Positions 29,063 through 32,337 of a stretch of 61,829 bases of DNA are shown piece after piece (the first letter of the stretch is position 1; every line of letters starts with the position of its first letter). The notes under the pieces are model-generated. The model made no database searches and was not told the DNA's origin. It worked only from the letters and a program-made list of their open reading frames with translations. A program made the translations under genes and the position numbers. This DNA comes from Alphaproteobacteria bacterium (GTDB lineage: Bacteria; Pseudomonadota; Alphaproteobacteria; CADEGL01), in the NCBI GenBank assembly GCA_026400755.1, contig JAPLOM010000022.1:1-61829 (forward strand), read 5' to 3'.

Positions 29063-29950
29063 TCAGCGCTTGCCGGTCCCTCGGAAGTTCTCGAAGAACT
29101 CGCCCTGGGGCGACAGGATGTAGGTCGTGTCACCGGGTTGCAGCGCCTCCCGGTAGGCCTGCATGGAGCGATAGAACTCGTAAAACTGCGGGTCGACGCT
29201 CAAGGCCTTGTTGAAGATCTTGGTGGCCTCGCCGTCGCCGAGACCGCGCTGGATTTCCGATTCCTTGTTGGCCTCGGCGCGGATCACGGTGGACTCACGG
29301 TCCGCGGTGGAGCGGATCTGCTGGGCGCGTTCGAAACCCTGGGCGCGGAACTCGGCCGCTTCCCGTTCGCGCTCGGTGCGCATGCGGGCATAGACGGCTT
29401 GGCTGGTCTCGTCGGGCAGGTCGGCGCGGCGGATGCGCACGTCGATCACGTCGATGCCCAGCGGCCTGGCCGCCGTGTTCACCTCGTTGTGCAGGTCGGC
29501 GATGATCTTCTCGCGATCCTCCAGCACCATCGAAAGCGTGTGCTTGCCCAGCACGCCGCGCACGGCCGTAGTGACGATGCGGTTCAAGAGCGCCTGCAAG
29601 GCCGCCTCGCTGCCCACCGCCTGCCGGAACTTCAGCGGATCGGCGATGCGGTAGCGCGCATAGGCGTCGACCAAAAGCGGCTTCTGGTCAGCCAAGATCA
29701 CGCGCTCGATGGGCGGATCGAGCGGCAGGACTCGCGCATCGAAATAAATCACGTTCTGAATGAACGGCAACTTGGCGTTCAAGCCGGGTTCCTTGATCAC
29801 GCGCTTCGGGTTGCCGAACTGGAGCACGATGGCTTGCTGCGTCTGTTGCACGGTGAACAGCGTGCTCATCAACAGGATGATGAAGACCAGCGCCCCGATC
29901 CCGATCAGGATCAACGCACGCTTGTTGGACAGGATACGATCGACGTTCAT
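29063..29950 (-). CDS. hflC: FtsH-protease modulator HflC
   Basis: SPFH/stomatin-family protein of 295 residues with an N-terminal transmembrane helix (ALILIGIGALVFIILLMSTLF, about 13-33) and a periplasmic SPFH domain (QQAIVLQFGNPKRVIKEPGL, about 38-57). The helical C-terminus is rich in AEFRAQGFERAQQIRSTADRE-type sequence. With HflK it forms the cage around FtsH and restrains its proteolysis. It starts 13 bases after the hflK stop. Confidence 0.96.
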   Translation of the reverse strand: MNVDRILSNKRALILIGIGALVFIILLMSTLFTVQQTQQAIVLQFGNPKRVIKEPGLNAKLPFIQNVIYFDARVLPLDPPIERVILADQKPLLVDAYARYRIADPLKFRQAVGSEAALQALLNRIVTTAVRGVLGKHTLSMVLEDREKIIADLHNEVNTAARPLGIDVIDVRIRRADLPDETSQAVYARMRTEREREAAEFRAQGFERAQQIRSTADRESTVIRAEANKESEIQRGLGDGEATKIFNKALSVDPQFYEFYRSMQAYREALQPGDTTYILSPQGEFFENFRGTGKR

Positions 29951-29963
29951 GGCGCGCCCTCCC

Positions 29964-30929
29964 TTACGGCTTCTTCGCCGGCTCGGGCGCCGGATGGTTT
30001 GCGGAAGGCAGCGGTAACGGCAGGTAAGGCGCGGTGCCGCCCGATCCCGTCACGATGTATTTCTTGGCGTCCTTGAGGATCGCTTCCATCGTGTCGTAGT
30101 ACATGCGCTTTGTGGTCACGTCCTTGGAGTTCTTGTATTCGTTGTAGACCGAGGTGAAGTGCTGGCCGCGGCCCTGCGCCTCGTTGATGACGCGCTCGCG
30201 ATAAGCGTTGGCGTCCTGCACCATTTTCACCGCCTCGCCGCGAGCGCGCGGGATGATGTCGTTGCGGTAGGCCTCGGCCTCGTTCTGAGCGCGGTCGCGG
30301 TCCTGCAACGCGCGCTGGACGTCGTTGAAGGCGTCGATCACCGGCTGGGGCGGATGCACCTCCAGGAGCTGCACCTGGCGGATTTCGATGCCCGCGCCAT
30401 AGGCGTCGAGAATATTCTGCAAGAGCGTGCGCGTGTTGGCTTCGATCGTGCCGCGCGCCTCGGTCAACGCGGGCTGGATGCCCGTATGGCCGATCACCTC
30501 GCGCATCGCGGCCTCGGCAGCGACCTTCACGGTCTGCTGCGGCTCGCGGATGTTGAACAGATATTCGCCGGCGTTCTTGATCTTCCACTGCACGGCGAAA
30601 TCGACGTCGATGATGTTCTGGTCGCCGGTCAGCATCAGGCTTTCTTCCGGCACGTCGCGCTTGGGACCGCGCGAATCCGCCATCGTGCGGAAACCCACGT
30701 CGGTCGAGTTGATCTGCTCGACGCGCGGCGTCTGCACGGACTGGATGGGCGTGGGCCAATGATAGTTGAGGCCCGGCTCGGTGGTCTGGCCGTTCCACGC
30801 GCCGAAGGTCAGGACGACGCCCTGCTCGCCCGGCTGAACCCGGTAGATGCCCGAGAGCAGCCACAGCACGATGACACCGGCCAGAATATAGAGAGGCAGG
30901 CGCGAACCGCCCGTGCCGCCCGGAAACAT
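29964..30929 (-). CDS. hflK: FtsH-protease modulator HflK (5' end uncertain)
   Basis: SPFH protein of 321 residues from the first usable ATG, with transmembrane helix LPLYILAGVIVLWLLSGIY (about 11-29) and SPFH core (VQPGEQGVVLTFGAWNGQTTEPGL, about 31-54). HflK normally has about 45-80 more N-terminal residues that are Gly-rich. That segment is present here in frame (30930-31067; 46 codons reading NQGGGGPWGGGGSG... to QGQDRFKR), but a TAA at 31068-31070 directly precedes it and no ATG, GTG or TTG opens it. Either translation starts at 30929, giving a form without the Gly-rich cytoplasmic tail, or the true start was lost beside the tandem repeat. See findings. Confidence 0.88.
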   Translation of the reverse strand: MFPGGTGGSRLPLYILAGVIVLWLLSGIYRVQPGEQGVVLTFGAWNGQTTEPGLNYHWPTPIQSVQTPRVEQINSTDVGFRTMADSRGPKRDVPEESLMLTGDQNIIDVDFAVQWKIKNAGEYLFNIREPQQTVKVAAEAAMREVIGHTGIQPALTEARGTIEANTRTLLQNILDAYGAGIEIRQVQLLEVHPPQPVIDAFNDVQRALQDRDRAQNEAEAYRNDIIPRARGEAVKMVQDANAYRERVINEAQGRGQHFTSVYNEYKNSKDVTTKRMYYDTMEAILKDAKKYIVTGSGGTAPYLPLPLPSANHPAPEPAKKP

Positions 30930-31067
30930 GCGCTTGAAACGATCCTGTCCCTGACGGAACAGATCGTCGAAGTTGGGCGACTTCTGTCCGCCGCCGCGGC
31001 CCCAGGGGCTGTTGCCGCCGCCGCCGCCGCTACCACCGCCGCCCCATGGGCCCCCGCCCCCTTGATT

Positions 31068-31122
31068 TTATATATGGCCCGCCTTATATGACAGGTATAT
31101 ATGGCCTGCCTTATATGACAGG
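31068..31122. repeat. Tandem 27-bp near-palindromic AT-rich repeat before hflK/mrp
   Basis: Two head-to-tail copies of TATATATGGCCCGCCTTATATGACAGG and its one-base variant (CCT for CCC), about 27 bp each. Each copy is itself an imperfect palindrome (ATATATGGC...GCCTTATAT). They lie in the divergent hflK-mrp region and stand out by AT content. They could be stacked operators or -10 elements, or a slipped-strand duplication that removed the hflK start. Confidence 0.75.
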
Positions 31123-31224
31123 CTCTTGGGTGGGGACAATGAATCCGGGCGCGTTCTGCGCCTCTTCTTTTTTTCTTTTGTCTCCCACCCTTGGTTATCG
31201 CTGGAATCGTGGCAATTTCAAGGC

Positions 31225-32337
31225 ATGGCCGAGATCACTGAAGAACGCGTGCTCGATGCGCTTCGCGCCGTGCGCGATCCCGACCGCGGCGGCGACGTGG
31301 TCGCACTCGGTATGGTCTCGGGCCTGAACGTCACTGAAGGGCGCGTCAGTTTTTCCCTCGCCATCGATCCCAAGGACGCCGCGCGCCTGGAGCCGTTGCG
31401 CAGGACGGCGGAAGCTGCCGTGGCCGCGCTGCCCGGCGTGGTTTCGGCCGTTGCCATCCTGACCGCCCACCGAGCCCAGCCCGCGCCGCAACGCACGCCG
31501 CCGCACGCCCATCCTCATACGGAAAAGCCCGGGCTCGCAGGTGTGCGCGCCATCGTCGCGGTCGCCAGCGGCAAGGGCGGCGTGGGTAAATCCACCGTGG
31601 CCGCCAATCTCGCCCTCGGCCTCGCCGCGCAAGGCCTCAAGGTCGGGTTGCTCGATTGCGACGTCTATGGCCCGTCCATGCCGCTGATGATGGGCGTCAA
31701 GGACAAGCCGACGAAGGCGGCGGACGGCAAGCGCTTCGCCCCACCCGTCGCCTACGGCGTCAAGGTGATGTCCATGGGCTTCTTGGCCTCGGACAAGACA
31801 CCCATGATCTGGCGCGGCCCCATGGTGGCCAACGCCGTGGAACAGATGCTGCGTGGCGTGGAATGGGAGCCGCTCGACGTGTTGGTCGTCGACATGCCGC
31901 CCGGCACGGGCGACGCGCAGTTGACGCTTGCCCAGCGCGTACCGCTGGCCGGCGCCGTGATCGTCTCGACGCCGCAGGACATCGCGCTGCTCGACGCGCG
32001 CAAGGGCCTCAACATGTTCCGCCAGCTCGAGGTGCCCGTGCTCGGCATCATCGAGAACATGAGCTATTTCCATTGCCCTCACTGCGGCGAACGCACCGAC
32101 GTTTTCAGCCACGGCGGCGCCAGGCGCGAGGCCGAGGACACCAAGGTCGAGTTCCTGGGCGAGATCCCGTTGGATATCGCGATCCGAGAAACATCCGACT
32201 CGGGCAAGCCCATCACCGCGACCCAGCCGGACAGCAAGCACGCCGAAGCCTTCCGCGAGATCGCGCGCAAGGTGTGGGCCAAGGTCTCCGGCGAAAACGC
32301 GGGCGTCCGCACGCCGCCGCGCATCGTCGTCGAATAA
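31225..32337 (+). CDS. Mrp/ApbC/NBP35-type iron-sulfur cluster carrier ATPase
   Basis: P-loop ATPase of 370 residues that carries and transfers Fe-S clusters to apo-proteins. An N-terminal MIP18/DUF59 domain (about 1-90) is joined by a His/Pro-rich linker to the deviant Walker A ASGKGGVGKSTVAANLA (about 114-130), then Walker B-like DVLVVDMPPGTGDAQLTL (about 219-236) and the cluster-binding CPHC (about 285-288). The ATG at 31225 starts the DUF59 domain; the long upstream open frame is a Phe/Ser-rich leader without similarity. A terminator follows. Confidence 0.94.
   Translation: MAEITEERVLDALRAVRDPDRGGDVVALGMVSGLNVTEGRVSFSLAIDPKDAARLEPLRRTAEAAVAALPGVVSAVAILTAHRAQPAPQRTPPHAHPHTEKPGLAGVRAIVAVASGKGGVGKSTVAANLALGLAAQGLKVGLLDCDVYGPSMPLMMGVKDKPTKAADGKRFAPPVAYGVKVMSMGFLASDKTPMIWRGPMVANAVEQMLRGVEWEPLDVLVVDMPPGTGDAQLTLAQRVPLAGAVIVSTPQDIALLDARKGLNMFRQLEVPVLGIIENMSYFHCPHCGERTDVFSHGGARREAEDTKVEFLGEIPLDIAIRETSDSGKPITATQPDSKHAEAFREIARKVWAKVSGENAGVRTPPRIVVE

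Follow-up and report, generated by a model that had tools for sequence, protein, structure and literature searches.

The product of hflK assists the FtsH membrane protease. In Alphaproteobacteria this FtsH modulator is an SPFH/Band_7 protein covered by the NCBIfam model TIGR01933, with a Gly-rich HflK_N tail, and it is encoded beside hflC and, in most relatives with mrp found nearby, divergently from mrp. At the DNA level, small tandem duplication and deletion mutations arise by replication slippage at quasi-palindromes. The locus described here lies in a window of 61,829 nucleotides (the whole stretch of DNA that was analyzed). Its hflK has the domain order, the Gly-rich tail and the neighborhood of the alphaproteobacterial gene, including the divergent mrp, but neither a start codon nor a ribosome-binding site serves the full-length frame. 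With slippage mutations at quasi-palindromes the locus shares a short tandem unit, inverted arms and an apparent deletion at a shared breakpoint; it differs in that it is known from an assembly alone and could be an assembly product. The features to which the text refers are as follows.

29063–29950, minus strand: hflC, intact, downstream of hflK (198.7 bits)
29964–30929, minus strand: hflK, largest open reading frame with a start (ATG 30929, 321 aa), comprising the transmembrane segment, SPFH/Band_7 and the C-terminal part (ORF call, Pfam and NCBIfam profiles)
30930–31067, minus strand: the N-terminal 46 codons of hflK (Gly-rich, HflK_N), an open stretch lacking any start codon
31068–31070, minus strand: in-frame TAA spanning the junction of repeat copy 2 and the gene; the deletion junction lies here, with AAAATCAAGG common to the window and its congener
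31069–31095, minus strand: repeat copy 2 (CCTGTCATATAAGGCGGGCCATATATA), duplicated -10 region with no -35 element at the right distance, as read from the sequence
31096–31122, minus strand: repeat copy 1 (CCTGTCATATAAGGCAGGCCATATATA), predicted -10 region in the conserved promoter of hflK
31134–31139, minus strand: TTGTCC, predicted -35 element for hflK, with a spacer of 18 nt to TATAAG (17 nt in the congener)
31226–32337, plus strand: mrp/apbC (Fe-S carrier ATPase), divergent, start conserved in the congener

The hflK frame and its missing start

Sequence and ORF calls give the minus-strand frame as TAA (31070–31068) AAT CAA GGG GGC GGG ... TTC AAG CGC ATG (30929). The 46 open codons between the TAA and ATG 30929, which run from N to R, include zero ATG, GTG or TTG codons, and a single CTG is the sole near-cognate start codon among them. 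Because no ATG, GTG or TTG is found upstream as far as the TAA, the longest hflK reading frame with a start is the 321-aa frame from ATG 30929. The full frame including the upstream codons matches Pfam HflK_N (29.4 bits) and Band_7 (91.3 bits) and passes TIGR01933 (257.8 bits versus a cut-off of 159.4), thus the upstream codons are genuinely part of hflK. The hflK-hflC gene order is present, with the frames of hflC and degP undisrupted, and no second hflK copy was found in the 3.36-Mb genome. Another genome, G260, was considered as a further case of a start-less hflK and rejected, since the TAA in its match sits directly before a normal ATG.

A tandem repeat in the predicted hflK promoter

Two 27-bp units (31069–31095 and 31096–31122) stand in tandem and abut the hflK frame, with one difference in 27 positions. 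The first-pass annotation had reported both this repeat and the absent start beside it, and both observations hold. With a TRF score of 101 this is the top-scoring tandem of the 61.8-kb window, so the repeat is not due to chance. Within each copy, 9-bp arms form an inverted repeat that is imperfect at one position (ATATAAGGC-NN-GCCATATAT); the matching site of the congener has perfect 9-bp palindrome arms, and among the nearest genomes the palindrome is restricted to this genus. In the first-pass annotation the probable role of the unit as the -10 part of a conserved promoter went unrecognized. A hairpin or cruciform function was rejected because the folding of the palindrome is not unusual (z of -0.1 for the unit and -1.5 for the pair). 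A dispersed repeat or mobile element was also rejected, since the 13-mer and 20-mer patterns of the repeat are confined to these two copies genome-wide. No RNA element was found near the repeat; a match to the DnaX element at 31142–31190 is below threshold (E 0.75, 16.3 versus 35 bits).

Upstream of hflK, and on the hflK strand, the motif TTGNNN-N17-TGWCATATAA occurs in many alphaproteobacterial families, and in most of the motif-bearing loci TTG precedes TATAA by 17 nt. The exact form TGWCATATAA is present ≤200 nt upstream in 14 of the 59 hflK genes of the M-x-W type, versus 0 on the reverse strand and a shuffled expectation of 0.05. TGWCATATAAG has three sites in the window's genome, which are the two repeat copies and one site inside a nuoG-like coding frame. 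From this placement on the hflK strand, the conservation among relatives and the near-uniqueness in the genome we conclude that the 27-bp unit represents the -10 half of a conserved, predicted hflK-directed promoter. Copy 1 together with the upstream TTGTCC has the layout and orientation of that promoter (TTG -35, about 17 nt, TGWCATATAA, hflK strand). The window differs from it in having the -10 half twice, with the -35 element retained by copy 1 and absent from copy 2, and in a spacer of 18 rather than 17 nt. The motif is conserved beyond a plain -10 consensus and may also be a regulator site; a search of the literature on RpoH-type promoters of alphaproteobacterial hflK returned no paper. 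The form TTGCNN-N17-TGWCATATAA was seen upstream of hflK in distant families (L009, L008, L013, L015, L023, L029, L031, L035, L037, L041, L136 and L139).

Comparison with a congener and origin of the junction

The comparison rests on one congener, G001 (L033/L004, contig CADEGL010000055.1), and included no same-species genome, so the ancestral state within the species is only inferred. HflK of G001 is 96% identical to the window protein. The G001 sequence reads CCTGTCATATAAGGCAGGCCTTATATAATAGG ... GAAGGAGCGCGTTTC ATG CCG TGG CAA AAT CAA GGG, so that hflK opens with MPWQNQGGGG; an AAGGAG ribosome-binding site lies 8 nt before the ATG, which itself sits 74 nt downstream of TGTCATATAAGG. The full-length frame thus has a start of its own in G001 and none in the window, and the repeat unit is present as one copy with the intact start in G001 and as two copies without a start in the window. 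Counted from the first base of CCTGTC as far as AATCAAG, G001 has 88 nt and the window 55. Relative to G001, the window has an additional 27 bp (the second copy) and lacks about 60 bp (the ribosome-binding site and first codons), and homology resumes from AAAATCAAGG onward. The segment missing from the window was not found elsewhere in the 3.36-Mb genome, other contigs included, and no other lesions were found in the genes aligned with G001. Since a close relative has an intact start, the arrangement points either to a local lesion of recent date or to a slip of the assembly, and not to a new mechanism.

On the mrp side, positions 31182–31227 ahead of the mrp start (TTGAAATTGCCACGATTCCAGCGATAACCAAGGG, minus strand) match the congener at every base, against a background identity of ~89%, and may represent a promoter or leader of mrp. 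An A/T run and a terminator-like stem occupy 31147–31183, in the interval that separates the start of mrp from the hflK promoter, and here the congener differs by a short indel. Contigs of other genomes that begin ≤300 nt from the hflK 5′ end are found at L006 (G003:C209) and as G367:C220, G352:C358, G031:C134, G251:C11 and G103:C351.

Over the 45 alignable N-terminal codons, pS between the window and G001 is 0.18 and pN is 0.02 (six synonymous and two non-synonymous changes), values close to those of the remainder of hflK (pS 0.26, pN 0.02). The N-terminal tail is still under purifying selection, thus the loss of the start is either recent or not real, and the similarity to the rest of the gene indicates that in each of the two lineages translation of the tail continued until recently. 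The two amino-acid changes of the tail (P to S, E to D) both fall on the window's branch, which weakly suggests a relaxed constraint.

We put at about even the chance that a recent, real local rearrangement in the hflK-mrp intergenic region removed the hflK start, and slightly favor this reading over misassembly. In such an event the 27-bp -10 half of the promoter would have been duplicated in tandem, and ~60 bp from the promoter to the fifth codon would have been lost, taking the ribosome-binding site and ATG CCG TGG. Both breaks share one point of departure, the last base of CATATATA, at the far arm of the quasi-palindrome, and a single replication slippage or template-switch event at this quasi-palindrome would fit both. 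Since the N-terminal codons are still constrained, the lesion, if real, must be very recent. Somewhat short of even is the probability that the repeat was instead joined directly to the Gly-rich coding start during assembly and the ~60-bp leader with its ATG was dropped, the true genome then having its promoter, possibly with the -10 unit in tandem, ahead of an ordinary leader and ATG. The purifying selection on the N-terminal codons and the normal start in every relative that opens with M-x-W are in line with such an error, a bad join would also explain why both junctions leave the end of CATATATA, and the join shares just 2–3 A residues, like a forced overlap. Among other genomes, 6 of 80 plus-strand cases have a contig end ≤300 nt from the 5′ end of hflK, and 0 of 70 minus-strand cases have one that close to the 3′ end (p = 0.03), which marks this stretch as hard to assemble and makes an assembly error possible. 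Against this stand the requirement of de Bruijn assembly for reads across both new junctions, the one-base difference between the two copies, so that identical reads simply duplicated do not account for them, and the contig of 136 kb, in which the aligned neighboring genes carry no other lesion.

Two further readings are far less probable. One is a functional arrangement in which translation from ATG 30929 (or another start) yields a short HflK, with no Gly-rich cytosolic tail and with a doubled promoter, and we consider it very improbable. Such a protein would align from E. coli residue 77 and would keep the part modeled in the E. coli complex, for which the cryo-EM structure covers HflK residues 79–355 (PMC12048511). 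However, ATG 30929 has only AGGA 13 nt upstream versus AAGGAG 8 nt upstream in the congener, the Met at this position is not conserved (Met in 18 of 114, with Leu commoner), the tail that would be dispensed with is still constrained, and copy 2 has no -35 element. The other, hardly credible, is that a non-canonical start codon or the loss of a single base in assembly accounts for the opening of the full Gly-rich tail, a proposal that comes from the first-pass annotation only. The codon before the tail is a stop that closes the frame ahead of the 46 start-less codons, and relatives use an ATG, at M-x-W, that lies upstream of this point by a few codons; one extra A would yield ATA, which is no usual start, and ~60 bp differ from the congener, whose start region is quite a different sequence. 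The first-pass interpretation is therefore partly supported: its observation is confirmed, but of its options only the first, destruction of the start along with expansion of the repeat, agrees with the single copy and intact start of G001 set against the two copies and absent start of the window.

Consequences for HflK and for annotation

Under the slightly favored reading of a real, recent rearrangement, transcription from the -35 and -10 elements of copy 1 should persist. The message would have no start for full-length HflK; the most that it could offer is a weak internal one at ATG 30929, giving an N-terminally truncated HflK. The more likely outcome would then be that HflK function is lost or its expression strongly reduced, and the locus would represent a naturally occurring allele in which a conserved protease partner has lost its start. 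A natural lineage living with a doubled hflK -10 element and a short, tail-less HflK would imply that the tail is dispensable in FtsH-HflK/C assembly, an outcome to which we assign very little probability. The finding matters mostly for annotation, as gene callers will set the HflK start at 30929 and silently drop the N-terminal domain. A by-product of the analysis is a conserved, essentially genome-unique motif upstream of hflK that can be traced across the class.
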